Shown one piece after another: positions 4,269-24,099 of a stretch of 27,340 bases of DNA. The notes beneath the pieces are model-generated. The model did no database searches and was not told the DNA's origin. It saw only the letters and a program-made list of their open reading frames with translations. The DNA is from a virus. A program made the position numbers and the translations under genes. The stretch is taken from positions 1 to 27,340 of the IMG/VR virus record IMGVR_UViG_3300020213_000100; one strand, given 5' to 3'. Every line of letters begins with the position of its first letter. Within the stretch, counting starts at the first letter, position 1.

Positions 4269-6425
4269 ATGGAAAAATTGATTTTAAGCATTTATCCAAA
4301 GTCTAAACACCCAACGTATGAAATGATCAGTCTTCTTCTACCAGAAGAAAAAATCTCTGTAGGAGTATTGCGGGAAAGACTATTTAAGCTAGATTTGACT
4401 AATCTACTAGTTTTATGCCTTGATTCAGAAGTATCTAAACTTTTCAAAGAAGATTACGGGTTTAATGATCATGGAATCTATTTTGATGTTTATTACAACT
4501 CTGCATTTGATGAACAAGCCCATCTTTATGCAGAGAAAATAAAAAAACTAAAAACAAAACTTTCAAAGAAGTATAAACAAGAGACTGAATCGTCGCTAGA
4601 GCTAGAGGGGTTAAAACTGGTTAATCGGACTAGCCAATATGCCTTTACTCTTGTACCTCTTGAAAAAGCGAGTCAGAAACGTGACTACGAACGCTGGTTG
4701 AATTACGATGCTTTCGTTGACCCTGTTGTCAAATATCAAAAACAAGAAAGTGTAATAGTTACTCACACTTGTATTTTAGATATAGAGACTACAGGGTTAG
4801 ATTTTGAAGGTAATAGCATCACAATGATTGGTATAAAGCCTTTAGCAAGTATGCACCACCAGTGTATCTCTAATCCAACCGTAACCCAGATAAAAAACTT
4901 GTTAATTTATTTAGAAGGAAAAACAATTATTGGGCATAATCTAATCTTTGATCTTTCTTGGTTGATGTATGCATCTGGATCGACGTTTGTTCCAAATATA
5001 AATACAGTCGACACGCTGCTGTTAGCTCACGTAGCAGGGGAAAGACGACTAAGCCTTAAACATCTGTCAATGATGTATGGAAATTTTAAGGGTAGACGTA
5101 ATACTATGAATGCGGATGAAAATTATTTGTTGGAAGATCTTTTAGCTACGGAGCTTTTATATGAAAAATTCAAACACAAATTAGATACCTTCTCCGGTCA
5201 ATTGGTTTGTCAAGCCGTGAAGACTTTCTCAGAAGTAAAGGTAAATGGTATAGCTCTTGATAAAACCAGACTGTTTGAGATTAGAGACACGTACAAACAG
5301 TATGATACTCCAAAGTATGAATTTAATGTAGACAGTAACAGGGAATTGGCAGACTACTTAATAGCGCAAGGGGTTCCTTTGGTAGATAAAACTGAAAGAG
5401 GGGATTGGAAAGTAGATCAAAAAACTCTTGAGAATTTTAATAACCTACCAGTAGTATCAAAATATTTAGAGTATCAAAAGGAAGTTACTATTTATCAAAA
5501 GTTTATCAAGCCTTATTGTGAGTTACAGAATTTCATGATTAGACCTGATATTCGATTATCAGGTACAGAGACAGGCAGGCTTTCCTGTAACAATCCTAAT
5601 GTCCAACAGATACCAAATAGAAGTTTATTCAAAGATATTTTTAGATCAAGATTTGAAAGTGAAGGATTTATTGGGTCAATCGATCTAGATCAGGCAGAAT
5701 TAAGAATAGCTGCCTTGCTGGCAAATGATCAAATTTACGCTCAAGCTTTATTGTCTAATGACTTTCATAAACTCGTAGCGAGTAAATCCTTCGGCATAAC
5801 AGAGAAAGAAGTTACTAAAGCTCAAAGATTTGCAGCTAAAACGGTAAATTTTGGAGGTGTGTTATATGGAGGATCAGCGAAGGGGATAGCCTGGAGAATC
5901 AAGGTAGATACCTCCGTAGTACAGACCATTCAAGCTTGGTATAAAAAAGAATTTATTGGTCTTACTAACTGGATTGAAGGTGAAAAAGAACTAGCTGTAC
6001 AAACATCATACAGTCAAACTTATTTTGGTAGAGAACGGAGTCTAAGGGAGTTGAGATGGGATCAAAAACGTAGAATTGGAGTCAACACAGCAGTTCAATC
6101 CGTGGCTAGTGATGTAATGCTTTACATCGTCGTTAGACTCTCTGGGTTGATCAGAAAGAATAAGCTAAAGTCTAAGGTCATGTTTCCAGTTCATGATGAA
6201 CTATTGCTTGATATTCATAAATCAGAATTAGACAAAATTATAGAATTACTGAAACAAGCTTTTAAAGACGTGTTAAAGACCCCTTTAGGTAAACTAGGTT
6301 TAACAAACGTGTTACCTGTAAGCGGGTCTTTGGAGTGGGGTAAAAGTTGGTTATATGTCAAAAATGAAAAGTTTCCTAGTGACGGTTCTACCAAAATTAG
6401 TTCGCTAGAGGGTGTAAATGAATAA
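4269..6425 (+). CDS. polA: DNA polymerase, family A, with 3'-5' exonuclease domain
   Basis: The 718-residue replicative polymerase resembles PolA without its 5' nuclease, which is encoded separately at 7123. The N-terminal 160 residues are unassigned. The proofreading domain starts with LDIETTGL (Asp171, Glu173), continues with IIGHNLIFDL, and ends with an acidic helix near LLATELLYEKF. Polymerase motif A is SIDLDQAELRI near residue 468, motif B starts at Arg520 and Lys524 (RFAAKTVNFGGVLYGG), and motif C is VHDELLLD (His642-Glu644). Motif B is one residue longer than the usual family A spacing: eight residues, not seven, separate Lys524 from the Tyr-Gly pair. AAAGAGG upstream supports ATG 4269. 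The 3' end overlaps the methyltransferase gene by eight bases. Confidence 0.95.
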   Translation: MEKLILSIYPKSKHPTYEMISLLLPEEKISVGVLRERLFKLDLTNLLVLCLDSEVSKLFKEDYGFNDHGIYFDVYYNSAFDEQAHLYAEKIKKLKTKLSKKYKQETESSLELEGLKLVNRTSQYAFTLVPLEKASQKRDYERWLNYDAFVDPVVKYQKQESVIVTHTCILDIETTGLDFEGNSITMIGIKPLASMHHQCISNPTVTQIKNLLIYLEGKTIIGHNLIFDLSWLMYASGSTFVPNINTVDTLLLAHVAGERRLSLKHLSMMYGNFKGRRNTMNADENYLLEDLLATELLYEKFKHKLDTFSGQLVCQAVKTFSEVKVNGIALDKTRLFEIRDTYKQYDTPKYEFNVDSNRELADYLIAQGVPLVDKTERGDWKVDQKTLENFNNLPVVSKYLEYQKEVTIYQKFIKPYCELQNFMIRPDIRLSGTETGRLSCNNPNVQQIPNRSLFKDIFRSRFESEGFIGSIDLDQAELRIAALLANDQIYAQALLSNDFHKLVASKSFGITEKEVTKAQRFAAKTVNFGGVLYGGSAKGIAWRIKVDTSVVQTIQAWYKKEFIGLTNWIEGEKELAVQTSYSQTYFGRERSLRELRWDQKRRIGVNTAVQSVASDVMLYIVVRLSGLIRKNKLKSKVMFPVHDELLLDIHKSELDKIIELLKQAFKDVLKTPLGKLGLTNVLPVSGSLEWGKSWLYVKNEKFPSDGSTKISSLEGVNE

Positions 6426-6927
6426 TTCACAATTAATTAACCAAACATCAAATAAATATGAGTATTATACTCCCTCTTCGATAATAGAGGCAGCTAGATC
6501 AACGATGGGTAGTATTGACCTTGATCCGGCAAGTAGTGAAACCGCTAATCAGAGAGTAAAAGCATTGGCGTATTACTCATCAGAAGGTTTAGAAAAAACT
6601 TGGTACGGTAATATTTGGTTAAACCACCCCTTCTCTAGAGAAAATAATCCTTTATGGATCAGAAAATTACACTTGGGATATCATCTAGACCGCATTGAAC
6701 AAGCCTGCTGTCTTACTTATGCAGCAACTTCAGAAAACTGGTTTCAACCGCTCTTTAATTATGTACAATGTTGGTTGGCTCCAAGAACAAATTTTTACTT
6801 ACCCGATGGGACATTAAAAAAGGGAGTGACAAAGGGATCGGTGATAACTTACTTCGGTTCAGAAAACAAAAAATTTAGTTTTTACTTTTCTAAGCTGGGG
6901 TATATTACCCAACCATTAAGAAATTAA
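6418..6927 (+). CDS. Dam-type phage DNA N6-adenine methyltransferase-like protein
   Basis: The 169-residue protein resembles the phage DNA N6-adenine methyltransferase family (Dam, PF05869-like). YYTPSSIIEAAR is followed by SIDLDPASSETAN, corresponding to the SAM-binding DP motif, and by YYSSEGLEKTWYGNIWLNHPF. The last part aligns with the family's W-x-G-x-V-W-x-N-P-P-Y/F catalytic block. The catalytic tetrad reads N-H-P-F here, with His replacing the first Pro, so activity needs checking. Such enzymes methylate phage DNA to escape host restriction. The start lies inside the polymerase gene, giving an eight-base overlap. Confidence 0.7.
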   Translation: MNNSQLINQTSNKYEYYTPSSIIEAARSTMGSIDLDPASSETANQRVKALAYYSSEGLEKTWYGNIWLNHPFSRENNPLWIRKLHLGYHLDRIEQACCLTYAATSENWFQPLFNYVQCWLAPRTNFYLPDGTLKKGVTKGSVITYFGSENKKFSFYFSKLGYITQPLRN

Positions 6928-6930
6928 ATT

Positions 6931-7080
6931 ATGTCAATACATTTATGGTTTCTCTGTATCCTGGGTGTTAATTTATCTTTATTAGCAACTGTACTTATAT
7001 ATGGAGTGTGTGTTATGTCTGGAATAGAAGTACCACCAATGACAAATGAACCAAACCAAGTAGAAAGCAATAAAGAATAG
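6931..7080 (+). CDS. Small single-pass membrane protein (49 residues)
   Basis: This short frame fits the 195-base gap between methyltransferase and nuclease. Residues 4-28 are a continuous hydrophobic stretch (LWFLCILGVNLSLLATVLIY and onward), followed by a hydrophilic tail with PPMTNEPNQ. The ribosome site is weak (only AAGAAA upstream), so translation may depend on coupling with the methyltransferase gene, which stops three bases earlier. Function is unknown; a lysis-related or host-membrane role is possible. The membrane segment is visible, but expression is inferred. Confidence 0.45.
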   Translation: MSIHLWFLCILGVNLSLLATVLIYGVCVMSGIEVPPMTNEPNQVESNKE

Positions 7081-7092
7081 TTTGAGATTGCT

Positions 7093-7118
7093 TATAAGGA
7101 GCTTTTATAAGGAGCTTT
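7093..7118 (+). repeat. Tandem 13-bp duplication of a ribosome binding site
   Basis: TATAAGGAGCTTT occurs twice head to tail (7093-7105 and 7106-7118), followed by a third TATAA that runs into the start codon. Each unit carries AAGGAG. The second is eight bases from the ATG at 7123; the first is about 21 bases away and is too distant to initiate directly. Confidence 0.8.
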
Positions 7119-7122
7119 TATA

Positions 7123-7914
7123 ATGAGATTATGTGTAGACGGCGGTTATTTAACTTTTAAAATGTCCTTTGGAAACTTTGATCAATGGCAGCGTACCCAC
7201 GGAGAAAAAGTTTCTATCTTTGCTATAGATAATACACCTAAACGAAAAGAGGTTTACCCCGATTATAAAAAGGGGAGAAACACTGGTAAATCTGAAATTT
7301 TACAAGATGTATGGGCTTTGAGAGACCGGATCAATGAGGAGAAACAACTACCACTTTGTAGTATAGAAGGTTTGGAAGCAGACGATTTGGTAGCTTGTTG
7401 GGGCTTGTTTAATCCTGATCATCTCATTGTAGGGGTGGATAAGGATTTTTTTCAACTTCCTAATGTGGGTACTGTTTTGTACCATAACCTGCAACCCTAT
7501 GGAAAGAATGCAGCTATCGAAAAGTTACCAGTGTATTTGCAAGAGTTGGCTAGAGATAATTTTGCTCTTTATCAAATGCTTTTAGGAGATATAGCTGATA
7601 ACATACCTCGGTTGTTGAGTAAAGGTAAAGAGGGAAAAAATCAAATAGAATTTTTAAAAAATGCAACAGATCACGGTCATTTAGCAGAGAGTCTACAAGA
7701 TTTATTTGATGACCAAATAATTACCAATGCAAAGTTAGTTTTAATTCCATATTATGAATATTGTCAAGCAGAGGATTGGTTTGTCGATTGGTGTTTCGGG
7801 AATTACTATAATCCTAAGCATTGGTCAACGTTGTATCAGCAGATGATTGATTGTCTGTTACCCAATACGACAGGTAATGAAAAAGCAGTATGGGATTTGT
7901 TTAGTTTGAATTAA
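7123..7914 (+). CDS. 5'-3' exonuclease / flap endonuclease
   Basis: The 263-residue PIN/FEN-fold nuclease would remove RNA primers and flaps, supplying the activity missing from the phage polymerase. Metal-binding motifs are in family order: VDGGYL at the N-terminus, YPDYKKGR (the typical Tyr-Pro-x-Tyr-Lys segment), LEADDLVAC near residue 84, GVDKDFFQL near 105, and LLGDIADNIPR near 154, the Gly-Asp-x-x-Asp-Asn-Ile-Pro signature of the helix-turn-helix clamp. The C-terminal 90 residues are not typical. ATG 7123 has a duplicated AAGGAG upstream. A terminator follows 16 bases after the stop and ends the replication unit. Confidence 0.88.
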   Translation: MRLCVDGGYLTFKMSFGNFDQWQRTHGEKVSIFAIDNTPKRKEVYPDYKKGRNTGKSEILQDVWALRDRINEEKQLPLCSIEGLEADDLVACWGLFNPDHLIVGVDKDFFQLPNVGTVLYHNLQPYGKNAAIEKLPVYLQELARDNFALYQMLLGDIADNIPRLLSKGKEGKNQIEFLKNATDHGHLAESLQDLFDDQIITNAKLVLIPYYEYCQAEDWFVDWCFGNYYNPKHWSTLYQQMIDCLLPNTTGNEKAVWDLFSLN

Positions 7915-8289: not shown

Positions 8290-8916
8290 TTGTTGGAAAT
8301 AACCTATGTAAATTTTTTCCTAATTTTCCTCATTTTAGTTTTCTTAGTCTATATTAATAATGAACAAGTTAGACTAAGAAAACTCCTTCCGTTTGATAAT
8401 TCTAGGCAATCCTTAAAGCGTATGAAAATTTTGTCTGTAGTAGCAGGACACGATTTGGATATGCAAGAAATTGAAAAGTCTCTTTATTCCACTGATATTA
8501 GTTACAATCTTCTCAGTTATCAAGCTGTATCCCAACAGTCACTCTTAGCAGAACTCGAAAAAGACGTTACAGTATTTGAGTTGTCTAGTCATGGATTGAA
8601 TGGTGCTTTTCGACTAGGTAATGCGAGTATACCGATTTCCTGGCTTTCTACTGCCTTAAAACAAACTAAAGGTTTGGATTGTGCTTTATTACTTTATTGC
8701 AATTCTTATATCGATCAGGAAGTAATCGCAGCTTCAAAAATTTTTGTGATTAGCATGATTGGGGATGTAAAAGACACTACTTGTGTCGTTTTTTCTAGGA
8801 ACTTCTATTTTTATCTCAACAAAAAATTCACTTATACAGAAGCTTTTGAGAGATCAAGGTTACAACTTCCTGTTGAAGATTTCCCAAAGTTTATTTACAA
8901 AGATGGAAAACTATAA
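8290..8916 (+). CDS. Membrane-anchored caspase/CHAT-like cysteine protease
   Basis: Residues 6-22 form a transmembrane helix (YVNFFLIFLILVFLVYI), so the rest is probably a tethered domain. From residue 46 the protein follows the caspase-like CHAT pattern: strand KILSVVAGHD, then strand VFELSSHG with the candidate catalytic His101, then LDCALLLYCNSY with the candidate nucleophile Cys137. The typical end is IFVISMIGDVKDTTCVVFS, then NFYFYLNKKFTYTEAFERSR, matching the CHAT signature of an FY..L helix and an EAF..AR-like helix. Start is TTG 8290 or TTG 8293 with a poor ribosome site; a stop at 8278 rules out a longer form, and ATG 8422 would remove the membrane helix. The stop overlaps the small terminase start (TAATG), so it is in the late operon. 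No TPR or other partner domain is attached. Substrate is unknown. Confidence 0.72.
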   Translation: MLEITYVNFFLIFLILVFLVYINNEQVRLRKLLPFDNSRQSLKRMKILSVVAGHDLDMQEIEKSLYSTDISYNLLSYQAVSQQSLLAELEKDVTVFELSSHGLNGAFRLGNASIPISWLSTALKQTKGLDCALLLYCNSYIDQEVIAASKIFVISMIGDVKDTTCVVFSRNFYFYLNKKFTYTEAFERSRLQLPVEDFPKFIYKDGKL

Positions 8917-13853: not shown

Positions 13854-14399
13854 ATGGAACTCGAAACTACTGAAACTGAGTCAGAAACCACAAATACAGG
13901 TGATACTTCTACCGAAATTGAAGGTAATGGTACTTTTACTCAAGATCAGGTAAACAAAATTGTAATAAAACGTGTAAAAGAAGTTAAAGCACAATTTAAA
14001 GACTATAAGAGTTTGCAGGATACAGTAACAACTTTGACCGCTCAAGTAGAGGCACTAACAGCAGAAAAAGACACTGTCAAGAAACAATATCTTGATACAG
14101 CTTTTTCTAGTCTACTTGATTCAACCGCTATGAACTTAAATCTTGATCCTGAATTAGCTTTGAAATTGTTGGATAAAGACAAACTCATTTTTGTTGAAGA
14201 TAAACCAACAAATCTAAAAGAGCTACTGCACGCAGTGATTGAAAAGCATCCTAGTCTTGTTAAAAAAGTTGTTATTACTCCTGTTATTCCGTCTGTAACT
14301 CTAACAGAAGGTGAAAAAAACTTCTCACTACACAAAACATCAAAAAGTAACTTTTTCTCTGGTGGTGGTTTAAAAGCTGCTACTCTTATTTCTAAATGA
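13854..14399 (+). CDS. Capsid scaffolding protein (gp20/DUF4355-like)
   Basis: The protein of about 181 residues would guide capsid assembly and then leave the shell. The first 25 residues are Glu/Thr-rich and acidic. They are followed by the characteristic FTQDQVNKIVIKRVKEVK segment of phage gp20/DUF4355 scaffolds and a coiled coil to about residue 80 (TVTTLTAQVEALTAEKDTVKK). The C-terminal part ends in a basic, Ser-rich tail suitable for binding the capsid shell. ATG 13845 is in frame, but the GGAG at 13840-13843 abuts it, so ATG 13854 with a 10-base gap is preferred. It lies directly before the capsid gene. Confidence 0.8.
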   Translation: MELETTETESETTNTGDTSTEIEGNGTFTQDQVNKIVIKRVKEVKAQFKDYKSLQDTVTTLTAQVEALTAEKDTVKKQYLDTAFSSLLDSTAMNLNLDPELALKLLDKDKLIFVEDKPTNLKELLHAVIEKHPSLVKKVVITPVIPSVTLTEGEKNFSLHKTSKSNFFSGGGLKAATLISK

Positions 14400-14411
14400 A
14401 GGTAATTTAAA

Positions 14412-15266
14412 ATGGCTATCACTAAATCTACTGATCTTAATAGTTTGTTTTCGGATATTTATGAACGGGCAATCTTTGTAGCTCGTGAAATGAACCTGAT
14501 GGTACAACTGGTTAGTAACTACAGCGCTAACAACTTTTACACCCGCCATCTTAAGACACGACCTCAGTTATCTGCTGAAGCTGTTACAGAAGGCGTGGAC
14601 TACAACAATGCTCAGACATTTGGTTTGACAGAAGTTGGCACGTTGACTCCAGGTGAAAAAATGGTTCAGGTTGTGTTGACTGATATCGATGTTATGAATG
14701 ATCCCGATGGGGCTATGCAGGATGCATCACAGGAGATGGGTGCAAGTATTGCTACTAAGATTGATACTGATCTAGTAGGTTTGTTCTCTAGCTTTTCCAC
14801 AGATAAAGGTACAGGGGCTGGTAATGCTGCTACTCTAGCTTCTGTAGCAGCAGGGGTTAGTTTGCTGCGTACTCGCTTTGCAACTCAAGATGGACAAATC
14901 AACGTCGTGTTGCATCCGTATCATTGGCATGATATTTGGGTATTGTTAGGTCAACCGGCTAGTAATCAAGCACTGTTGGGTGAAGTTGCTAATGCAGCTT
15001 TACGTGACTATTTTGTAGGTAACTGGCTAGGGGTGACTTGGTATACTTCTGCAAACATTAGTGTTGATGCAAGTGATGATGCTATTTCAGGTATTTTTAC
15101 GCAATCTGCTTTGGCCTTCGATTCAAGAATTGCTCCAACAATGGAGCCTGAACGGGATGCGTCATTACGGGCATGGGAACTTAATATGATTGCCGGTTAT
15201 GCGTATGGTTTAGGCAAACGACCAACTTATGGTGTCAAATATACCGCAGATGCGGCCACTCCGTAA
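14412..15266 (+). CDS. Major capsid protein (HK97 fold)
   Basis: The 284-residue shell protein follows the scaffold gene by 12 bases. Its length and sequence fit a short HK97-fold protein of the T7-independent, P22/SPP1-like size class: an N-terminal arm (MNLMVQLVSNYSANNFYTRH), strand LTPGEKMVQVVLTDIDVMND, spine helix DASQEMGASIATKIDTDLVGLF, then VVLHPYHWHDIWVLLG, NWLGVTWYTSANISVD and the A-domain end AWELNMIAGYAYGLGKRPTYGVKY. The last portion is characteristic. No N-terminal propeptide of the HK97 delta-domain type is present, so cleavage is not required. GAAGG upstream supports the ATG. Confidence 0.88.
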   Translation: MAITKSTDLNSLFSDIYERAIFVAREMNLMVQLVSNYSANNFYTRHLKTRPQLSAEAVTEGVDYNNAQTFGLTEVGTLTPGEKMVQVVLTDIDVMNDPDGAMQDASQEMGASIATKIDTDLVGLFSSFSTDKGTGAGNAATLASVAAGVSLLRTRFATQDGQINVVLHPYHWHDIWVLLGQPASNQALLGEVANAALRDYFVGNWLGVTWYTSANISVDASDDAISGIFTQSALAFDSRIAPTMEPERDASLRAWELNMIAGYAYGLGKRPTYGVKYTADAATP

Positions 15267-15322
15267 TGCCTTTTTCAAACGTTAATAAAGGAGGTTTAGA
15301 TCTTTCATAAAGGATTTTATAC

Positions 15323-15706
15323 ATGTTCGGTTCTTATCAACTTCAAACTCTTTTAATTCCTCTTAACTATGATCCTGCTGCGGATGATGATATTTTTCTC
15401 TTCAAAGCTTCTAAGACACTCAAAATTGATTCTGCTTCGGTTACTCTGAATAATGCTTTAGCAGGCGGCACAGCAAACTACTTTGATGTAGCTTTATACA
15501 ATGGTGGTACTGCCGGAACTGGTGTAACAGCTATTGGTGGAACAATTGGTGGAACAATTGGTTGGTCTGCCTTGACTCCTAAGGACTTTACAATCTCCAA
15601 TGGCACAGTAACAGCTAATCAAGTGGTGTATCTTCGCTATAATGAAGAAGGCACTGGCACGTTTACTGCCGGTGTGGTTCAGATAAATTATCGTATTGGT
15701 CAATAA
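15323..15706 (+). CDS. Probable head decoration protein
   Basis: The 127-residue, Gly/Thr/Ala-rich, beta-predicted protein comes right after the major capsid gene. Its place and size are typical of a capsid cement or decoration protein. No family is recognised. The middle holds the short repeat IGGTIGGTIG, encoded by a 12-bp tandem duplication. AAAGGA at 15309-15314 supports ATG 15323. A much stronger AAAGGAGGT (15288-15296) further up has no start codon at a useful distance. Confidence 0.55.
   Translation: MFGSYQLQTLLIPLNYDPAADDDIFLFKASKTLKIDSASVTLNNALAGGTANYFDVALYNGGTAGTGVTAIGGTIGGTIGWSALTPKDFTISNGTVTANQVVYLRYNEEGTGTFTAGVVQINYRIGQ
15533..15562 (+). repeat. 12-bp tandem repeat in the decoration gene
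   Basis: ATTGGTGGAACA occurs twice followed by a partial third copy, coding for IGGT units. Being a multiple of three, it can expand or contract without breaking the frame. Confidence 0.85.
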
Positions 15707-15756
15707 TTGTTTTACTAGTCTAAAAAACTAACCAAAAAACAAGTCAAAAAAGTTAA

Positions 15757-15785
15757 TTGATACAATAGTATCAAATTAGTAAAAT
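15757..15785 (+). promoter_or_regulatory. Promoter-like site with an operator-like palindrome
   Basis: TTGATA (15757-15762) and TAAAAT (15780-15785) have a 17-base spacer. TTGATAC and GTATCAA form a perfect 7-bp inverted repeat (15757-15774) around AATA, covering the -35 box. It lies in the gap between the decoration and connector genes, which start at 15838. Confidence 0.5.
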
Positions 15786-15837
15786 CGTTGAACTTTGCCA
15801 TTCTCTGTTGTTCACGCCTGTAACTCAAGGAATAAAA

Positions 15838-16392
15838 ATGGCTATACGCTCTGGAATGACTGATTTAGTATCACAATTTAGAAGTAATGTACAAGAATCA
15901 GGTACAGTCATTTTTTCTGATGATCGTATACAGCAAATTTTAGATTCAAGTTCTTTTTACTTCACACAACAGACCTTACAATATCAAACCTATTATCTAA
16001 CTGGTACTGTTCAGTATAAAGACGCTTCTGTTCCTCAAACTTGGTTAGAAGGTACTGCAACAAATACTGTAAGAGTTTATAATTCCGGTGGTACAACTAC
16101 AACTGCATACACATCAGACTTTGTTAATGGTAAGTTTACCTTTACAAATAACACGCTTGGCACTGCTTATTATCTGACAGGTAGAAGCTTCAACTTTTAT
16201 CAAGCTGTAGCTACTGGGTGGAATGAAAAAGCGGGTTACTATGCTAACAACTTTGATTTCCAAGTAGAAGGAAGAAGCTTTAAGAAGTCCCAAGTTATTA
16301 GCCACTGTAACCAAATGGCTAAACAATTTCTTAATCAAGCACGTGGGATTCAGCATAATATTGATAGAGGAGATATGTATGAGTCTCATTAG
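15838..16392 (+). CDS. Head-tail connector (adaptor) protein
   Basis: ATG 15838 has AAGGA six bases upstream; a TTG at 15808 is in frame but unsupported. In the 184-residue product the N-terminal LVSQFRSNVQESGTVIFSDD and RIQQILDSSS resemble the start of gp6/gp15-type adaptors, which bind under the portal. The middle is a beta-rich insert with Thr/Tyr repeats (YYLTGTVQYKD and later TAYYLTGRSF), and the C-terminus is helical, QMAKQFLNQARG. Placed between capsid and head-closure genes, this is the most likely role. Confidence 0.68.
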   Translation: MAIRSGMTDLVSQFRSNVQESGTVIFSDDRIQQILDSSSFYFTQQTLQYQTYYLTGTVQYKDASVPQTWLEGTATNTVRVYNSGGTTTTAYTSDFVNGKFTFTNNTLGTAYYLTGRSFNFYQAVATGWNEKAGYYANNFDFQVEGRSFKKSQVISHCNQMAKQFLNQARGIQHNIDRGDMYESH

Positions 16393-16762
16393 TGCTGCCG
16401 ATCTTGTTTTCATGCGTTCTACTGAGGAAACAGCAATGGATAGTTTAGCAACTATCTATGCAATTACCTATACCGCTGGAGCTTTGGGTAATACTACAGA
16501 AAGTTATACAGCTACATCTACAAACATCGCTTGTGATATCTGGCCTCTATCAAGAAATGTAGATGAAAAATCAAGCGGTAATCAAGAGTTGTCAATGGGA
16601 GAATTTTATATTTCTCTACCTTATAACACCTCTGTAACCGTCAAAGATTTGATTGGCATTAGTGGTATTACTTATGAGATTACTTTTGTACCTCTAGCTC
16701 AAACTTGGCTTACTAATTTACGATTAGAAGCTAGAAATTATAATGGTTCGGCTAGACTCTAG
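16379..16762 (+). CDS. Head closure (stopper) protein
   Basis: The 127-residue product starts at ATG 16379, with GAGGAG at 16367-16372; the longer in-frame start at 16343 lies inside the previous gene and is not supported. The beta-rich pattern, IACDIWPLSRNVDEKSSGNQ followed by FYISLPYNTSVTVKDLIGIS, with a GITYEITFV strand before a C-terminal LTNLRLEARN, fits SPP1 gp16-like head-closure proteins. Normally another connector gene would follow at once. Here the glycan cassette intervenes. Confidence 0.62.
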   Translation: MSLISAADLVFMRSTEETAMDSLATIYAITYTAGALGNTTESYTATSTNIACDIWPLSRNVDEKSSGNQELSMGEFYISLPYNTSVTVKDLIGISGITYEITFVPLAQTWLTNLRLEARNYNGSARL

Positions 16763-16773
16763 AAAGGATCAAA

Positions 16774-17766
16774 ATGTTTCTTGCTGCTACAATATTAAGC
16801 TTATGCCTTGCAGTGAACGACCCTGGTAAATACCCAGGAACGTATCAGGATTTAGCTTTAGCCTTGAATCCTACATGTTGGTTAAATTGGGGAATTTACG
16901 ATGAACAAAATTTACAAGACCCTAGATTCACCCCTATGCTTTGGAAATTGAACGAAGCGAGTATAAAACAAGCAAGTGACTATGCTGCAAAGTATCCTGG
17001 ACGCACTTGGCTTTTGTATAATGAGCCTGAAGGACTAGATCAATCTAACACGACCCCTGCATCTGCTGCTTTTTACTTTGATAAAGCTTTTACTCTAATC
17101 AAGAATCTTGACCCTACTGCTAAAATTGCTTGCTGTGGAAATATGGTAAGAGAAGAAAGTATCGATTGGCTAAATGAGTTTGTAAGACTTGCCAAGTTTA
17201 AACCTGATTACTGGCATGTACACATTTATATTGCAGATGATGAACCTAAATCTTGGGTAGCTTTCTGGAATTATTGGGATTTCTGGAATGTTAAATCTTT
17301 TGGTAGTTTACCCACACTCATAACAGAAACATGCTCTGTGAGTGGAGGTAATCAGCTTTTTAACTTTTTGTTAAATTATAGAAACCCAAAGATTTTGAAC
17401 ATTTATTGGTTCTCTGCATTCCCTGAACCCCAAGTAGCAGATTGGCAATGTAATCTCTTTGATGCGGCTGGTAAGGAAACTCTATTAGCAAAAAGTATCC
17501 CCTCAAACATAACACCTAGTCCGGAACCTCCTAGACCAATTTTTACACCTTCTTCAACTAAAACCCCAACTCAATTACCAACCGATACACCAACTCAATT
17601 ACCAACCGATACACCAACCCAAGTAGTTACTAAAACCCCAACTCCCATACCTACTCCTTCACCAACTTCTACACCAACTTCTACTCTTTTAGGATCTCCA
17701 ACAGGAGAAAAAGAAAAAGAAGAACCTAATCTGTATCGGGTATATCTAAGTTACGTAACACAATAA
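16774..17766 (+). CDS. Glycoside hydrolase, GH128/Asl1-like, with Pro/Thr-rich tail
   Basis: The 330-residue protein probably hydrolyses a beta-glucan-like polysaccharide. Residues 20-240 match the Asl1-like TIM-barrel hydrolase fold: CWLNWG, TWLLYNEPEG with the candidate acid/base Glu84, HVHIYIAD, LITETC with the candidate nucleophile Glu185, and IYWFSAF. The N-terminus (MFLAATILSLCLA) is hydrophobic but has no basic residue, so it is only a possible signal peptide. Residues 247-305 are a Pro/Thr/Ser-rich linker with a duplicated TQLPTDTP unit, and the protein ends in LYRVYLSYVTQ. AAAGGA precedes the ATG. It opens the inserted cassette, and it could act as a depolymerase if carried by the virion. 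Confidence 0.72.
   Translation: MFLAATILSLCLAVNDPGKYPGTYQDLALALNPTCWLNWGIYDEQNLQDPRFTPMLWKLNEASIKQASDYAAKYPGRTWLLYNEPEGLDQSNTTPASAAFYFDKAFTLIKNLDPTAKIACCGNMVREESIDWLNEFVRLAKFKPDYWHVHIYIADDEPKSWVAFWNYWDFWNVKSFGSLPTLITETCSVSGGNQLFNFLLNYRNPKILNIYWFSAFPEPQVADWQCNLFDAAGKETLLAKSIPSNITPSPEPPRPIFTPSSTKTPTQLPTDTPTQLPTDTPTQVVTKTPTPIPTPSPTSTPTSTLLGSPTGEKEKEEPNLYRVYLSYVTQ
17566..17613 (+). repeat. 24-bp tandem repeat in the Pro/Thr linker
   Basis: Two perfect 24-base units (17566-17589 and 17590-17613) encode TQLPTDTP twice. A diverged third unit follows. Confidence 0.85.
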
Positions 17767-17783
17767 TCAAAGGGAAATAGATA

Positions 17784-19022
17784 ATGAATAATTTGAGGAT
17801 TTTGTATAGTTCAAATGCATTCTGGGCTAGTTCTGGTTATGGCGTACAGGGTAGAAGTTTACTGCCTAGAATGGCAAATTTGGAGACTGTCAACGGTCGT
17901 GAGAATGTAGCTCAATTTGCGTGGTACGGTTTACAGGGCGGGATGCACAACGTTGAAGGATTTACGATTTTTCCTGCTGGAGTCGATCCTTATGGTAATG
18001 ACATAATTCAGTCACATACTAGAGCTTTTAAGGCCAGTGTGGTTATTACCTTGATTGATGCTTGGGTACTCCAAGATATTGGTAAAAAGGTTTCTCCCGC
18101 TTTATGGCTCCCCTGGCTGCCAATTGATCATTCTCCTGTACCTGAACGGGTATTAGCAGGGATTTCGGATGCTTACTTGCCTCTTACATATTCCAAAGAT
18201 GGGCATACCAAATTAAACAATGCTGGAGTAAAGAATCAGTATATACCGCATGGGATTGAACCGGGTGTTTTTAAGATTCTACCTTTGGAGGATGTAGAAC
18301 GCTTTAAACAGCAGTATTTGAAACATACAGGGCATTTGACTATCATGGTAGCTGCCAATAAGGGGTATCCTGATCGAAAAGCATTTCAGCAACAATTACG
18401 GGGTTGGGCTGCTTTTGCTAAAGACAAACCAGACGCTAGATTGTATCTTCATACTGAACCTACTCCCCTGTATCAGGGGTTGGATCTGCATAAACTTTGC
18501 GATAGTTTAGGAATTCTTCATAAGGTCATGTTTCCAGACCGATACGAGTATTTCACCGGATTTCCATCGGAATATCTAGCTTTTATTTATAATTCAGCAA
18601 ATATTATGATGCATGCAAGTATGGCAGAAGGTTTTGGAATTCCTAGCATTGAAGCTCAAGCTTGCGGTTGTCCTGTGGTGACTACAAACTTTTCTTCAAT
18701 GCCTGAATTAATTAGATATGGAACAATTACAGAACCTAGAGATATGATTTGGACACCAATGGACGCATGGCAAGCTTGGCCTGATCATGTTGCAATCAGA
18801 GACTCTCTAGACGATAATTATGCGACTTGGTTGTCTTTAGGCAAGGTGAGAGACTTTGATGAGGGAATAGCCGCAAGTAACCAAATTCACTCTGAATTTA
18901 ATTGGGATACGCTTGTAGAGGAGTATTGGAAACCATTGTTTGAGGGTTTGCACTCTAAGATATATCCTCAACAAGTAATAATTACTCAAACTCCTAGACT
19001 AGGAAAGATCAAACCAGTATGA
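17784..19022 (+). CDS. Glycosyltransferase, GT4-like (GT-B fold)
   Basis: The 412-residue enzyme would transfer a sugar from a nucleotide donor to a glycan, lipid or protein. The N-terminal domain starts ILYSSNAFWASSGYGVQGR, a typical Gly-rich acceptor-domain opening. The C-terminal donor domain has YIPHGIEPGVF, MVAANKGYPDRK, and the retaining EX7E motif EGFGIPSIE (Glu282, Glu290) followed by ACGCPVVTTNFSSMPEL. AAAGGGA precedes the ATG. The stop overlaps the next gene (ATGA). It has no membrane segment, so the enzyme is cytoplasmic. Confidence 0.9.
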   Translation: MNNLRILYSSNAFWASSGYGVQGRSLLPRMANLETVNGRENVAQFAWYGLQGGMHNVEGFTIFPAGVDPYGNDIIQSHTRAFKASVVITLIDAWVLQDIGKKVSPALWLPWLPIDHSPVPERVLAGISDAYLPLTYSKDGHTKLNNAGVKNQYIPHGIEPGVFKILPLEDVERFKQQYLKHTGHLTIMVAANKGYPDRKAFQQQLRGWAAFAKDKPDARLYLHTEPTPLYQGLDLHKLCDSLGILHKVMFPDRYEYFTGFPSEYLAFIYNSANIMMHASMAEGFGIPSIEAQACGCPVVTTNFSSMPELIRYGTITEPRDMIWTPMDAWQAWPDHVAIRDSLDDNYATWLSLGKVRDFDEGIAASNQIHSEFNWDTLVEEYWKPLFEGLHSKIYPQQVIITQTPRLGKIKPV

Positions 19023-19621
19023 AAGTAGCAGCTTTAATTATTGGAATTGATGGTTGGGTGGGGTATACATTACCCTTAGTTAAATCAATTCAGAAATACC
19101 AACCTGACTGTGCTATTGTAGTAATCGACAATGCAAGTAAAACTCCTTATCCTGATTTAGACATTGTTTATCGTACATCCCGCATTTGTTACTCTGCGGC
19201 AATTAATTATGCTTATTCAAAAGTAGAAGCTGATTATTATATAGTTTTATCAAACGATGTTTTATGTACAGGCAAATTCGATCATTTATTAAAGCCCTAT
19301 GGGGTACTTGGTATTGAACTAATTCAGGCCAAAGAACCAAAAAATCTCGCTTGGTTAATGGGCTGGTGTCTTGTTTTTCCTAAAGAAATTTGGGAAGATA
19401 TTGGTGGGTGGGATGAAAATTATAAGATTTCATCTTGGGAAGATGTAGATATTTCTACAACCATTTTAAAGTCTAAATGGGATCTGGTTTTCAACCCCAC
19501 TTTCCCTTTTAAGCATTTGGATCAGAAACAAAGATTTACTTTAGTCAACGATTACTGGCAGTCTGAAGTACATAATATGGAATACTTTTTCAGAAAGCAT
19601 TTTGATGAACCTAAAAACTGA
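19019..19621 (+). CDS. Glycosyltransferase, GT2-like (GT-A fold)
   Basis: The 200-residue protein is compact but keeps the main GT2 parts: a first strand ALIIGIDGW, VVIDNAS (residues 34-40) for nucleotide binding, VLSNDV near 76-81 as the DxD-like metal site (Ser-Asn-Asp in place of Asp-x-Asp), and GGWDENYKISSWEDVDIS (129-146), the family's acceptor/catalytic block with an ED-x-D motif. The start overlaps the GT4 stop by four bases, so the two are probably made together. Confidence 0.82.
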   Translation: MKVAALIIGIDGWVGYTLPLVKSIQKYQPDCAIVVIDNASKTPYPDLDIVYRTSRICYSAAINYAYSKVEADYYIVLSNDVLCTGKFDHLLKPYGVLGIELIQAKEPKNLAWLMGWCLVFPKEIWEDIGGWDENYKISSWEDVDISTTILKSKWDLVFNPTFPFKHLDQKQRFTLVNDYWQSEVHNMEYFFRKHFDEPKN

Positions 19622-20279
19622 AGCATCTATGATCAAATGGTGGCATGGAGGTATCCCTCTCGCAGACGATTTAATTACTGAAGGAACTACGTACCCACGT
19701 TACACGGTGTTACCTTATCTAGAATTGCCTTTGGATTTAACAGATAAAACAGCAATTGATATTTGTACATGGGATGGGTATTGGTCATTTGAATTAGAAA
19801 AACGTAATGCTAGTAAAGTAATCGCCGTCGATTCTTTTGTTTGGAATGATGATAATGCCAAAGCTATAGGTTACTCGGGAAAAAGGGGCTTTAATCTAGC
19901 CCATAAGACTCTAGAGTCTAAAGTTATTGATCATACTTGTGAAGTCCTGGATTTATCTGTAGATAAGTTTGGTACATTTGATATAGTTTTGTTTTTTGGT
20001 GTTTTGTATCACATGAGGCACCCACTACTAGCTCTAGAAAAAGCCGCTTCTTTAGCTCATGATTTACTGATTCTTGAAACCGAAATAGAACCTAACATAA
20101 ACAATAATATTCCTCTTATGCGGTTTTATCCCGATTCAGCACTAAATAACGATAGCTCTAATTGGTTTGTACCTAACATGCTATGTGTAGAAGCGATGTT
20201 AAAAGATGTAGGTTTTACACACATAACGGGTAAAAATACATTTGCCAATAGTAGAGCAATATTCCACGCCTATAGATGA
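19605..20279 (+). CDS. SAM-dependent methyltransferase (CmoB-like)
   Basis: The product of about 224 residues has class I SAM motifs: AIDICTWDGYWSFELEKRNA (motif I, in the DIG-x-W-DG form of CmoB/DUF1698 proteins), VIAVD (acidic loop), and FDIVLFFGVLYHMRHPLLALE, a strong match to the CmoB-like family. CmoB itself modifies tRNA, but in a glycan cassette a sugar-methylating role is more likely. The start is uncertain: ATG 19605 and ATG 19629 both have weak ribosome sites, and ATG 19605 overlaps the previous gene. Translation may depend on coupling. Confidence 0.82.
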   Translation: MNLKTEASMIKWWHGGIPLADDLITEGTTYPRYTVLPYLELPLDLTDKTAIDICTWDGYWSFELEKRNASKVIAVDSFVWNDDNAKAIGYSGKRGFNLAHKTLESKVIDHTCEVLDLSVDKFGTFDIVLFFGVLYHMRHPLLALEKAASLAHDLLILETEIEPNINNNIPLMRFYPDSALNNDSSNWFVPNMLCVEAMLKDVGFTHITGKNTFANSRAIFHAYR

Positions 20280-20288
20280 GAGGTTAAA

Positions 20289-21341
20289 ATGATTATAGAC
20301 CCAAAGCACAAAGTTTTATATCACATCAATAGTCTGTTTGATTTGAAAGTCAAGGGTAAAACCAATGCTCCTGTAAATGTTGAGATTGACCTCTCTAATA
20401 GATGTAGTCATGGGTGTAGTTGGTGCCATTTTGCTTATACTCATACAAAGGGTTTGTTAGCAGGATCAGACAAACCAGAGGGTTATATTGATACAGGAGA
20501 CTTGTTTGACTTTGAACTTCTAAAACAAGTCTTGAATCAACTTCGCACAGCAGGTGTTAAATCAGTAACTTGGACTGGAGGAGGAGAGCCAACTCTCCAC
20601 CCTATGTTCAAAGAGATTATTGAGTTTACTAGCGACTTAGGGCTTGATCAGGGGATGTATACACATGGCGGTCATGTGACTAAAGAATTAGCTGCTTTGC
20701 TAAAACAAAAACTTATTTTTGTGTATGTTAGTCTTGATGAATGCACAGCAGAAGATTTTAAGCAAAGTAAAGGGGTTAATCGCTTTAAAAATGTGTTAGA
20801 GGGTATTGTTAATCTAGGGGATGCAGAGGGGACTTGTACTGTTGGAGTGGGATTTCTACTGCATGAATACAACTACACTAAGATTAATGAGATGATAGAG
20901 TTAGGTAGAGCTTTACAGCCTGATTACATTCAATTTAGACCTGTAATCGATTACGATCTTAACAATCCCTCAAAATTAAAAGTTCAACCTAGTTGGATTA
21001 CAGAACTCCCAGAAATACAAGACGAATTTATAATTTATGACAAATCCAGGTTTGAATATTACTTAAGCTGGCAAGGGCACGATTACCAGACTTGTCATTG
21101 GTCAAGTATGCAAACTGTGATTACTCCCAATGGTAAGATGTGGAGATGTGTAAACAAAAGGGGTTTTCCAGATGCTTTAATGGGAGACTTATCCCAACAG
21201 TCATTTAGGGAAATTTGGGATACTGTGGGTTATTCTTGTCAGGTGAATGATCAGTGTAGGGTTATGTGTAGAGGCCATTTGGCTAATCAGACATTAGATA
21301 AGGTGTTAAATGCAAAAACAGAACATATTAACTTCATCTGA
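20289..21341 (+). CDS. Radical SAM protein with SPASM-like C-terminal cysteines
   Basis: The 350-residue iron-sulfur enzyme would cleave SAM to start radical chemistry. EIDLSNRCSHGCSWC carries the CxxxCxxC cluster (Cys39, Cys43, Cys46). The SAM-binding TWTGGGEPTLHP follows, then the TIM-barrel strands FVYVSLDECT and VGVGFLLHEYN. The C-terminal part has CHWSSMQTVITPNGKMWRC, then CQVNDQCRVMC, a SPASM/twitch-like set of cysteines for an auxiliary cluster. Such enzymes modify peptides, sugars or cofactors. The substrate cannot be told here, but the neighbours suggest a glycan or a peptide being decorated. AGAGG precedes ATG 20289. The 3' end overlaps the next gene by 32 bases. Confidence 0.88.
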   Translation: MIIDPKHKVLYHINSLFDLKVKGKTNAPVNVEIDLSNRCSHGCSWCHFAYTHTKGLLAGSDKPEGYIDTGDLFDFELLKQVLNQLRTAGVKSVTWTGGGEPTLHPMFKEIIEFTSDLGLDQGMYTHGGHVTKELAALLKQKLIFVYVSLDECTAEDFKQSKGVNRFKNVLEGIVNLGDAEGTCTVGVGFLLHEYNYTKINEMIELGRALQPDYIQFRPVIDYDLNNPSKLKVQPSWITELPEIQDEFIIYDKSRFEYYLSWQGHDYQTCHWSSMQTVITPNGKMWRCVNKRGFPDALMGDLSQQSFREIWDTVGYSCQVNDQCRVMCRGHLANQTLDKVLNAKTEHINFI

Positions 21342-21936
21342 TCTGTATCTTAATACTTGCGTCATTATCCTAAACTCCGAAAGTAAAAACACATTAGTAG
21401 ACTTCTTTTCTTTTAATGGGTTATTTTCTTTGACGTGTAAAGGCAATACTCCGAAAGAGTTCTATAAATCTGTAGATTATGCTCAAGGTACTCAAATCGA
21501 TTATATAGCTACAATAGACGCAAGTCAAGGCTATGACCCTAATCAGTTGTTTTCTATGCTTTCTTTAATGTATGACTACGATTTAGTTGTAGGATCAAGA
21601 TTTCTTCCGTTTTCTAAATATACAGATACTTGGTTTCAAAAAGTAATCCTCAAACTGGCAAACCTAAGCTTGAGTCTAAATACTTATCATTTGGATTGGT
21701 TTAGTAGTCTAAGACTCTACCGAACAGAACTACTACAGAGTTTAAGACAGTTTCAGTACACAGAGAATTACCAAGTTGAATTGTTAGGTAGAGCTAATCA
21801 GTTAGGTGCTAAGATTTTTGAATATCCGGTTAGTTACCAAGAAAATGACCCCAAGATCAAGCTAAGTCTTAAAACTTGGTGGAATGTAATAAATTATCCT
21901 AAATCAGCAGAAATATCAGAGACAGAATTGGGATAA
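21310..21936 (+). CDS. GT2-like glycosyltransferase resembling polyprenol-phosphate mannose synthase
   Basis: In this 208-residue protein, YIATIDASQGYDPNQL (from about residue 65) takes the place of the MDADLQHDP block of DPM1-like enzymes, and YDLVVGSRFLP, LDWFSSLRLYR, and VELLGRANQLGAKIFEYPVSY follow the same order as in that family. Such enzymes load a sugar on undecaprenyl/dolichyl phosphate at the membrane. The metal-binding motif reads Asp-Ala-Ser rather than Asp-Ala-Asp, so activity is uncertain. There is no C-terminal membrane segment. AAGGTG precedes ATG 21310. It closes the cassette. Confidence 0.75.
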   Translation: MQKQNILTSSDLYLNTCVIILNSESKNTLVDFFSFNGLFSLTCKGNTPKEFYKSVDYAQGTQIDYIATIDASQGYDPNQLFSMLSLMYDYDLVVGSRFLPFSKYTDTWFQKVILKLANLSLSLNTYHLDWFSSLRLYRTELLQSLRQFQYTENYQVELLGRANQLGAKIFEYPVSYQENDPKIKLSLKTWWNVINYPKSAEISETELG

Positions 21937-21980
21937 TAACTTATGATATTACCCCTTATCAAAAGCTATTTTGAATAAAA

Positions 21981-22358
21981 ATGACAAGAGTAACTACTGA
22001 TACCACACGTTTAAATCGATTAATCAAAAACATTCTTGGTAACGCACGCCAAGCAATCGCTTCAGTCGCCTTTCAAGTAGAGGCCTTAGCTAAGATAAAA
22101 GCGCCTGTTGACACAGGAGCATTACGATCCGAAATTTACACTAGATTCAAGGATCATAATCCAGTTCCAGCAGAAGCAACAGAAGTATTACCAGAACCAA
22201 ATGATTTATCTGCCTATGTGGGTGCAGGTGTAGAATACGCAATTGATCAAGAATTAGGCACTATAAAAATGCAAGCACAACCTTTTTTGATTCCAGCATT
22301 AAGAGAAGTCGAAAGACAGCTAGAGGAACATTATAAAGGAATAACTAAAATTGAATGA
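21981..22358 (+). CDS. HK97 gp10-like neck/tail-joining protein
   Basis: In this 125-residue protein, the KAPVDTGALRSEIY motif (from about residue 37), YAIDQELGTIKMQAQPFLIPALRE and a basic N-terminal helix define the HK97 gp10-like family, which sits at the head-tail junction. No ribosome site is obvious before ATG 21981. The gene follows the cassette directly, and its natural partner (head closure) lies 5.2 kb upstream. Confidence 0.82.
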   Translation: MTRVTTDTTRLNRLIKNILGNARQAIASVAFQVEALAKIKAPVDTGALRSEIYTRFKDHNPVPAEATEVLPEPNDLSAYVGAGVEYAIDQELGTIKMQAQPFLIPALREVERQLEEHYKGITKIE

Positions 22359-22734
22359 CCTTCTAATGCTTGGTAGTGCTTTGTATAACAAGATTTCTAC
22401 AGCAGGTACAGTGACTACGTATTATCAAAAAGCACCCCAATCAGGTACACCTCCATTTTGTATTATTTCATTTGTTAATGCAAATGATGATTATGTTTTT
22501 AGTAAAAAAGGTGTACAGGGAGATTACTTTGTAAAGGTAATTTCTGATAAAAACTTTCCAGAGCAAGCGATTGTTTTGTATAGTTCAATTCATGACATTT
22601 TGCAAGATGTGTCTTTAACAATACCAGGGTATTCAGTTATCAAAATTCGACGTGAAAGTTTAGTTCAATATGAAGATCAGTTCCACTTTTGGAACGTTGG
22701 AGGATTGTATAATCTTGAAATTTGGCAAACATAA
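22351..22734 (+). CDS. Tail completion / terminator protein (DUF3168-like)
   Basis: The 127-residue protein starts at TTG 22351 (AAAGGA at 22335-22340), overlapping the gp10-like gene by eight bases; ATG 22366 is a shorter alternative. The pattern LGSALYNKIST, then TPPFCIISFVN, GDYFVKVISDKNFPEQAIVLYSSI and a final strand LYNLEIWQ resembles DUF3168/gp17-type tail completion proteins, which cap the tail tube. Its place just before the tail tube genes fits. Confidence 0.68.
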   Translation: MNDLLMLGSALYNKISTAGTVTTYYQKAPQSGTPPFCIISFVNANDDYVFSKKGVQGDYFVKVISDKNFPEQAIVLYSSIHDILQDVSLTIPGYSVIKIRRESLVQYEDQFHFWNVGGLYNLEIWQT

Positions 22735-22754
22735 TTTTTATAAGGAGTTTTTAA

Positions 22755-23147
22755 ATGGCAGCTTTTTCAGGTACAGCAGGGTCAGTAACTTGTCACACGG
22801 GTGGAACTATTTTAGCCACTTCTATATCAGAGTGGAGCCTAGACGGTAGTATGTCTCCGGTTGAGACTACCTCTTTTGGAGAAGTTTGGGATTCTTTTAT
22901 CCCGAGTGTTCGTAATGCTACAGGTTCATTTAGTGGGAATAGAGAACAGGCAGACACTGGGCAAACAGCGTTAGTAAATAGTTTTCTTGGTGGGTCAGCA
23001 ATTATTTTACGCTTGTATGAGAATGGAACAAAATATTGGTTGGTTGGTACTGCTTATATCACAGGAATTACCAATGGTTTGAGTGTCAAAGGTAAGGGTG
23101 AGACTAGCTTTAATTTTCAGGCCTCTGGTGCTGTTACCTATAACTAA
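22755..23147 (+). CDS. Major tail tube protein, paralogue 1
   Basis: The 130-residue protein should polymerise into the tail tube around the tape measure. It begins MAAFSGTAGSV, has EWSLDGSMSPVETTSFGEVW and SVRNATGSFSG, and ends in VKGKGETSFNFQASG, a pattern typical of small phage tube proteins with a beta-sandwich core. AAGGAG lies seven bases before the ATG. A clear paralogue follows after 27 bases. Confidence 0.78.
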   Translation: MAAFSGTAGSVTCHTGGTILATSISEWSLDGSMSPVETTSFGEVWDSFIPSVRNATGSFSGNREQADTGQTALVNSFLGGSAIILRLYENGTKYWLVGTAYITGITNGLSVKGKGETSFNFQASGAVTYN

Positions 23148-23174
23148 GTTTCAATAACTAAGGGAGGTAACTAA

Positions 23175-23561
23175 ATGGCAGCTTTTTCAGGTACTGCCGG
23201 TAGTGTTCTTCTAGGAGGTGTCGTTATTCCTGTTTCAGAGTGGAGTTTTGATATAAGTATGCCACCTGTTGAAATTACTGCATTTGAAAATGTTTGGGAT
23301 GCGATAATCCCCTCCGTTAGAACTGCCACAGGATCAATAAGTGGTCAGGCCACCGATGGAGGTGGAGGTGGTCAAAACGTAGGAAGAAATAGAATGTTAG
23401 CGGTTGCTGACTATTGCTCTTTAACACTGTATGAGGACGGATCTCGTTTTTGGACAATTGGTAGTGCTTTAGTCACGGGAATGACAACTGGAGTAAGCGC
23501 AAAGGGTAAAGGCGAAATCAGCTTCAATTTTCAAGCAAAAGGTTTGATTACGTACACATAA
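23175..23561 (+). CDS. Major tail tube protein, paralogue 2
   Basis: The 128-residue protein shares MAAFSGTAGSV exactly with its neighbour. It also shares the EWS, PVE, SVR-ATGS-SG, LYE-G, TG-T-G-S-KGKGE-SFNFQA-G blocks, at roughly half identity. It differs in a Gly-rich loop (DGGGGGQNVG) near residue 60 that replaces the DTGQT loop. GGGAGG before the ATG is a strong ribosome site. The two genes arose by tandem duplication, so the tube may be hetero-oligomeric or one copy may be a decoration or a cap. Confidence 0.76.
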   Translation: MAAFSGTAGSVLLGGVVIPVSEWSFDISMPPVEITAFENVWDAIIPSVRTATGSISGQATDGGGGGQNVGRNRMLAVADYCSLTLYEDGSRFWTIGSALVTGMTTGVSAKGKGEISFNFQAKGLITYT

Positions 23562-23572
23562 GGATAAAACTA

Positions 23573-23884
23573 ATGTTGAATAAAAAAGACTTTTTAGCAG
23601 GGATTTGTGGTGATAATGTAGAGTTTAGTATTCCCAATGTAGGGAATGTAATGCTACGATCTTTGACTGTAAAAGAGTTAAAAACAATTGCAAACGACTA
23701 TAAAACGGATGACATAGGTGCTGCTACAGCTACATTGTTATACGGCATGGTAGAACCCAAATTAGATAAATCTGATCTAGAAGCTCTAGAAAGTGCTATT
23801 CCAGGCATCATCATGAATATCTCCAAACGTATTAGTGAATTGTCAGGATTGAATGATACACAAGATACCAATTCCCCAAACTAA
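23573..23884 (+). CDS. Tail assembly chaperone, short form (gpG-like)
   Basis: The 103-residue protein holds the tape measure soluble during tail assembly. It is helical and acidic, with FSIPNVGNVMLRSLTVKELK near the start, and sits between the tail tube and tape measure genes, the fixed place for these chaperones. AAGGA lies eight bases before ATG 23573. The last codons, TCC CCA AAC TAA, contain a -1 slippery site that extends the product into the next frame to 24099. Confidence 0.8.
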   Translation: MLNKKDFLAGICGDNVEFSIPNVGNVMLRSLTVKELKTIANDYKTDDIGAATATLLYGMVEPKLDKSDLEALESAIPGIIMNISKRISELSGLNDTQDTNSPN

Positions 23885-24099
23885 TCTGGGAGTGGCTAAC
23901 GGCTATAAAACCTAATACATCACAAGTTACGCCTACAGACAATTTTCTTTTATTCCAATTAGCAGAGGAGAGATCAATGTCTGTAGGCACTTTATTAAAT
24001 GGTTTAGTCACTCCCTTAACACAGTGTGAGTTAGAAGTTTACAACCAATACACTTTAGTCAAAACTAGATTACATCAGCAAAGTTCAAAGTCAGGTTAA
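23573..24099 (+). CDS. Tail assembly chaperone, frameshifted long form (gpGT-like)
   Basis: A -1 shift at C CCA AAC (23875-23881) avoids the TAA at 23882 and reads on from CTA at 23881. The extension is 72 residues, starting LIWEWLTAIK, including FLLFQLAEERSMSVGTLL, and ending QQSSKSG at the TAA of 24097-24099. This gives a fusion of 175 residues. Lambda gpG/gpGT and many other siphoviruses make such a pair from this position, and the long form binds the tape measure through the extension. The extension has no ribosome site of its own, and the tape measure starts three bases after its stop. Confidence 0.82.
23875..23881 (+). promoter_or_regulatory. Programmed -1 ribosomal frameshift site
   Basis: The heptamer C-CCA-AAC fits X-XXY-YYZ exactly in the zero frame and lies immediately before the TAA stop. 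Any shift fraction that escapes termination joins the 103-residue chaperone to the 72-residue extension. I did not identify a clear downstream hairpin; the nearby stop itself may help. Confidence 0.8.

Follow-up and report, generated by a model that had tools for sequence, protein, structure and literature searches.

A radical SAM enzyme recurs beside glycosyltransferases among phage structural genes: a candidate virion-glycosylation cassette

The stretch of viral DNA analysed here, a 27,340-base IMG/VR contig that we refer to as the window, carries a block of six genes among its head and neck genes. The block consists of a core of three genes, encoding two glycosyltransferases (GT4 and GT2a) and a radical SAM enzyme, together with a variable slot and two passengers, a glycosidase-like gene (GH) and a DPM1-like GT2 gene (GT2b). 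We interpret it as a virion-glycosylation cassette, through which a virion protein would be glycosylated in the cytosol and the sugar edited by radical chemistry, a reading whose chances we judge to be evenly balanced. Virion glycosylation is known from few phage systems, which the accessible portions of the literature describe as glycosyltransferases plus a methyltransferase, and a search of open-access papers, in the portions of text that it covered, found no description of a phage radical SAM-glycosyltransferase cassette. What is new is that a radical SAM enzyme repeatedly accompanies the glycosyltransferases.

Anatomy of the block and its flanks

The window comprises a replication block, a terminase gene, genes for an SPP1-type portal, a MuF-like protein and the capsid, and neck and tail genes, and its end falls within the tape measure gene. 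Six open reading frames fill positions 16774-21936, all on the plus strand (Table 1), and they are as tightly packed as the earlier note had stated, the junctions being, in order, +11, +17, -4, -20, +9, -32 and +44 bases; the junction of -20 depends on a TTG start, with an ATG 3 bases further on. In base composition the cassette differs little from the backbone genes and thus bears no mark of a recent foreign insert, and promoter-like sites occur at the level of shuffled sequences. The same note placed the block between head-closure and gp10-like genes. This holds on the 3' side, where the gp10-like product matches phrog_5; the product of the 5' flanking gene has no family in Pfam or PHROG, and its assignment comes from similarity (45 bits) to an ORF of Microcystis phage Mae-JY09 that shares its end with an annotated 'head-tail adaptor' gene.

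The major capsid protein is similar to its counterpart in a cultured Microcystis phage and has at least 20 viral relatives at 50-67% identity. The small protein encoded 3' of it, which matches no Pfam or PHROG family, is taken as a decoration protein from its position. A near-identity DNA search of phage records with positions 14000-24000 of the window returned no match. Downstream of the block the window carries two tandem tail tube-like paralogues (22755-23561; TT1, phrog_1407 8e-8), and tail tube-like genes whose products are candidate acceptors also lie inside or beside the cassette in three other loci (L037 at 6736, L041 at 765 and L048 at 6443). The product of the gene before the terminase gene (8290-8916) has an N-terminal hydrophobic stretch and SSHG and LLLYCNS motifs that look CHAT-protease-like by eye, with no Pfam family even at E 10.

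Table 1. Features of the block and its flanks in the window, with the matches that identify them.
Feature	Position	Strand	Evidence
Major capsid protein; backbone, possible acceptor	14412..15266	+	PF25209 3e-11
Small conserved capsid-side protein; possible acceptor	15323..15706	+	Conserved 3' of capsid gene in relatives
Head-tail adaptor-like protein; 5' boundary of block	16343..16762	+	Similarity to Mae-JY09 ORF
GH, glycosidase-like (GH catalytic core) with Thr/Pro-rich tail	16774..17766	+	PF11790 5e-14
GT4 glycosyltransferase; core	17784..19022	+	PF00534 2e-12, PF13692, phrog_2170 2e-24; conserved in capsid relatives
GT2a, small glycosyltransferase; core	19019..19621	+	PF13641 3e-4, under cut-off
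SAM-dependent methyltransferase; variable slot	19602..20279	+	TIGR04290 3e-24, PF08003 3e-10
Radical SAM enzyme with SPASM-type C-terminal domain; core	20289..21341	+	PF04055 7e-16, PF13186 1e-6; alignment; model
GT2b, DPM1-like GT2	21310..21936	+	PF00535 0.018, under cut-off
gp10-like neck/tail completion gene; 3' boundary of block	21981..22358	+	phrog_5 'tail completion or Neck1' 4e-17

GH, GT4, the methyltransferase and the radical SAM enzyme are well backed by family matches, and GT2a and GT2b weakly so. GT4 exceeds the PF00534 cut-off (47.5 bits against 26.4), and the radical SAM enzyme exceeds those of PF04055 (59.4 against 29.5) and PF13186 (29.1 against 21.5). In an alignment of 18 rows the CxxxCxxC cysteines of the radical SAM enzyme (C39, C43 and C46) and its GGE-type motif (G97-G98-G99-E100-P101) are invariant, as are C269, C287, C323 and C327 of the C-terminal auxiliary-cluster domain. 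The nearest solved chains to GH are 6uav and 6uaw (E 0.001), and its Thr/Pro-rich tail may resemble those of Chloroflexota surface proteins.

The methyltransferase scores above the PF08003 cut-off and reaches 85.7 bits against a TIGR04290 cut-off of 300. It had been called CmoB-like, a likeness that is confined to profile positions from about 115 on, which form the SAM-binding core; an assignment as the CmoB tRNA enzyme is rejected, the scores being 48.5 of 275 and 45.3 of 209 bits. The label of DPM1-like GT2 survives for GT2b as a sub-threshold match, at 15.4 bits against a PF00535 cut-off of 23.3, which leaves it outside the DPM1/GtrB-like GT2 family, and the gene is GtrB-like by phrog_841 (0.0026). 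It has lost the first strand and the nucleotide-binding Asp, both of which are kept in its relatives in L019 and L035, and because of this loss the protein is, judged from its sequence, probably inactive. Protein searches found no relative of the methyltransferase or of GH in viral contigs or in phage records, and thus neither can be placed in a conserved pathway; the search of phage records with GT2a gave no match.

Distribution of the core and of the radical SAM enzyme

Loci encoding relatives of the capsid protein were mapped, as were loci encoding relatives of the radical SAM enzyme. The order GT4-GT2a-radical SAM upstream of the gp10-like gene is kept in L002, L004, L012, L037 and L039, and the contig of L013 is cut inside the radical SAM gene. 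GT2a shares 44-57% identity with the corresponding proteins of L002, L003, L004 and L006, and relatives of GT2a lie in the same gene order and retain a WEDVD-type motif. The methyltransferase of the window occupies a slot between GT2a and the radical SAM gene; this slot is empty in L002 and L039 and contains a second radical SAM gene in L004, L012 and L037, accompanied in L037 by a metallophosphatase gene. GH and GT2b are missing from all five core-bearing loci. No counterpart of the methyltransferase or of GT2b occurs in core-bearing relatives, and GH, of which a distant form occurs in L015 and L017, is likewise absent from them and is probably a passenger, a separate add-on. The comparison of relatives that the earlier note had called for finds the core recurring in place in close relatives and the rest absent. 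The accompanying view that all six genes form one pathway is not sustained, as only GT4, GT2a and the radical SAM enzyme travel together, the other three lack counterparts and GT2b looks inactive.

Among the loci encoding capsid relatives, 20 of 28 extend 2.5 kb or more beyond the capsid gene and were counted, the other eight being left out and the near-copies L006/L012, L019/L022, L015/L017 and L023/L024/L033 being treated as separate loci. Of these 20 loci, 17 have a glycosyltransferase gene no more than 8 kb 3' of the capsid gene, and five have the radical SAM gene. Two of the three loci without a glycosyltransferase (L017 and L023) end early, and their near-copies (L015 and L024) have one; only L032 is devoid of it across 8 kb. 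The position of the gene varies between the decoration/adaptor, adaptor/gp10 and gp10/gp17 intervals and a site after gp17. A glycosyltransferase so often near the capsid gene, and at shifting positions, indicates that a split neck block is usual in this capsid family, so that the contiguity of connector genes, presented as the norm, is not the rule here. Separate carriage of the genes, which had been named as grounds for refutation, is partly observed, as 12 of the 17 glycosyltransferase-bearing loci have no radical SAM gene nearby. In L029 (1817-3958) the GT4, of 713 aa, is interrupted by an apparent intein, recognised by eye.

Similar arrangements occur in named phages. In Microcystis phage Mae-JY09 (PP395641) and Pontimonas phage phiPsal1 (MG835450), as in the window, a GT4 gene lies directly 3' of the capsid genes and before the neck genes, in phiPsal1 as part of a GT4-methyltransferase-GT2 series; neither phage is among the eight phage records that match the radical SAM enzyme. 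In the podovirus isolate ctQWt234 (MW202801), as in the window, radical SAM, GT2, methyltransferase and glycosyltransferase genes form a block that follows the capsid gene; its radical SAM enzyme is 25.5% identical, and a single small gene separates the enzyme's gene from the capsid gene. The backbone of this phage, however, is a different one, and the block includes extra phyH-like and NodB-like genes.

The radical SAM enzyme is 39-60% identical among phages of at least four unlike structural backbones. The others include a phrog_1005 capsid (L009), a PF05065 capsid with Neck1 (L045) and a lambda-type portal (L042), and on these the gene again lies among head and neck genes; in groups L008/L014 and L048 the capsid gene was identified by eye alone, and many records are fragments. 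The tree of the enzyme largely follows the backbone, requiring 8 changes for 9 labels, which is the minimum, against a mean of 14.9 for shuffled labels. One backbone label, in which the radical SAM gene precedes the adaptor gene (L011, L040 and L049), is scattered in the tree, and this suggests that the enzyme has been transferred between phages.

A glycosyltransferase gene was found within 3 kb of the radical SAM gene in 24 of 27 loci, a count that leaves out the near-copies L005, L006, L038, L046, L047 and L097 and the unusable L014 (a stub of the radical SAM gene only), keeps both of the close copies L007 and L010, and includes small glycosyltransferase marker families (d1, d27 and d28) for which Pfam support is weak or absent. 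Two of the other three loci have only an unnamed family weakly like a glycosyltransferase (WbbM, E 0.016), and one is a cut fragment. GT2a precedes the radical SAM gene in L099, which has a phrog_1005-type capsid. Sugar-nucleotide genes are almost absent, with PF01370 in one of 31 radical SAM records (L042) and the aminotransferase family PF01041 in none, and therefore a full DesII-like pathway is not encoded. In L042 a sugar-nucleotide 4,6-dehydratase-like gene (6422-7423; PF16363 3e-48) lies upstream of a radical SAM pair. The radical SAM frame of L041 (5858-6940) has a stop codon, and this family member may be broken or misassembled.

Two patterns did not find the enzyme in cellular genome contigs; the same kind of scan on viral contigs, however, missed L096, L097 and L099, all of which bear the enzyme, and so this absence is no proof. 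Among 400 genomes from the phylum of genome G002, with at most five candidates scored per genome, partial matches turned up in six, scoring 79-90 bits where full-length members reach 583-593, and 47 genomes from the phylum of G001 gave no match in a scan without a positive control. The comparison with actinophages drawn in the earlier note is an analogy only, and nothing points to an actinophage. Relatives of the capsid protein occur in two MAGs, one of Anaerolineae and one of Eisenbacteria. A further 14 capsid-like ORFs were found among 201 genomes from the phylum of G002, and, since the nine that were inspected had no neck or glycosyltransferase neighbours, they are no proof of host. The capsid-like ORFs of L064-L083, in 14 high-GC genomes of this phylum, may represent a gene transfer agent or be encapsulin-like.

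Folds of the radical SAM enzymes

The model of the radical SAM enzyme has a mean pLDDT of 92.6. Its top solved folds are DesII (Z 24.1 over 319 residues, 4.0 A) and BlsE (Z 23.4 over 287 residues, 3.5 A), which are tied, and the peptide-acting enzymes SkfB (22.0), SuiB (21.3) and anSME (21.1) follow 1.4-3.0 Z behind these two. Identity to DesII and BlsE is 13-17%, the BlsE equivalog TIGR04466 gives 33.2 of 400 bits, and the sequence-profile matches are led by PqqE, TigE and SkfB. The modelled fold leans toward the sugar enzymes, without settling the matter. The second radical SAM enzyme, which belongs to sister cassettes and is absent from the window, has the AprD4 fold over its full length (Z 31.3, 385 aligned residues, 2.7 A; next 24.1) at 18% identity, in a model whose pLDDT is only 74.6. 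It is encoded in 12 viral loci, 11 of which also encode the first enzyme, and the contig of the twelfth (L094) ends there. Given the presence, beside glycosyltransferases, of two radical enzymes whose best folds are sugar-acting, editing of a sugar is the more economical reading. The substrate of DesII is a TDP-sugar and that of BlsE a nucleoside sugar, and the structure title names AprD4, complexed with paromamine, as a 1,2-diol dehydratase; by analogy, either a sugar nucleotide or an attached sugar may be the substrate of the phage enzyme.

Proposed role of the cassette and alternative readings

The route that we infer begins with GT4, which would put a sugar on a virion protein in the cytosol, the candidate acceptors being the capsid, decoration and tail tube proteins, and GT2a would extend this sugar. 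The radical SAM enzyme would edit the attached sugar or a sugar nucleotide by radical chemistry of the DesII/BlsE type, such as deamination, dehydrogenation or decarboxylation, and the enzyme encoded in the slot would finish the sugar, this being the methyltransferase in the window and an AprD4-like dehydratase in sister phages. Neither a flippase nor a clear membrane glycosyltransferase was found in the block; GT4, the methyltransferase, the radical SAM enzyme and GT2b have no clear membrane segment, and GT2a has one borderline stretch. These features, together with the placement among structural genes on several backbones, favour a cytosolic acceptor, i.e. a virion protein. The window also displays the arrangement that marks virion-glycosylation systems, phage-encoded glycosyltransferases with a methyltransferase in or near virion genes. 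In passages that cite Freeman et al. (2023), the mycobacteriophage Che8 and its relatives are described as modifying the capsid and tail tube by glycosyltransferases with an O-methyltransferase, and the window is alike in encoding several glycosyltransferases and a methyltransferase. In contrast with Maravista, in which the glycosyltransferase genes lie near the 3' genome end, those of the window lie among structural genes, and the window has a radical SAM enzyme, of which those passages make no mention. The recurrence across backbones and the fold matches leave glycan building within the virion-morphogenesis block, with an unusual step contributed by the radical SAM enzyme, as the best reading of what the earlier note had proposed.

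The radical SAM enzyme might instead be a peptide maturase that modifies a virion residue by epimerisation, cross-linking or oxidation, with the glycosyltransferases acting on that or another residue. SPASM domains are common in peptide maturases, and the presence of PF13186, the leading sequence-profile matches and the adjacency of the gene to structural genes would all fit. We regard this as unlikely, if still a serious contender: the best folds are those of sugar enzymes, the AprD4-like companion points to sugar, and the invariant cysteines outside the CxxxCxxC motif number only four, sufficient for a single auxiliary cluster but fewer than in two-cluster SPASM maturases. The cassette could also alter host-surface glycans during infection, leading to receptor masking or superinfection exclusion, rather than the virion. 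Phage glycosyltransferases act in this manner in serotype conversion, and those of pelagimyophages are read as host-surface modifiers in the available portion of PMC7029224. This seems rather unlikely, however, for a block that has no flippase or clear membrane glycosyltransferase, whose GtrB-like gene is degenerate and that sits among late structural genes on several backbones.

The variable contents and position of the block, and the lack of counterparts of GH, the methyltransferase and GT2b in core-bearing relatives, would suit a hotspot of unrelated passengers with no joint pathway, but the order of the core kept in five further loci, and the near-constant company of the two radical SAM enzymes, render this improbable. 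Hypermodification of the phage genome DNA by the glycosyltransferases has a precedent in viruses, in work cited in the accessible part of PMC12619734; we consider it very remote for a block that lies among head and neck rather than replication genes and a GT4 that belongs to general GT4 families.

Under the preferred reading, virion glycosylation with radical editing of the sugar, the recurring core suggests that the particles of many unrelated uncultured phages are decorated with a chemically unusual sugar. More tentatively, and with somewhat less than an even chance of being right, we propose that a phage-borne radical SAM family, common to many unrelated tailed phages and undetected in the cellular genomes that were searched, uses radical chemistry otherwise known from antibiotic biosynthesis to build a deoxy- or keto-sugar on virions, and that the family moves between capsid lineages with its glycosyltransferase and sometimes with an AprD4-like dehydratase. 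If true, this would represent a new enzyme family for the deoxygenation or oxidation of sugars, and phages would be editing the sugars carried by their own virions, which would bear on adsorption, recognition and stability.
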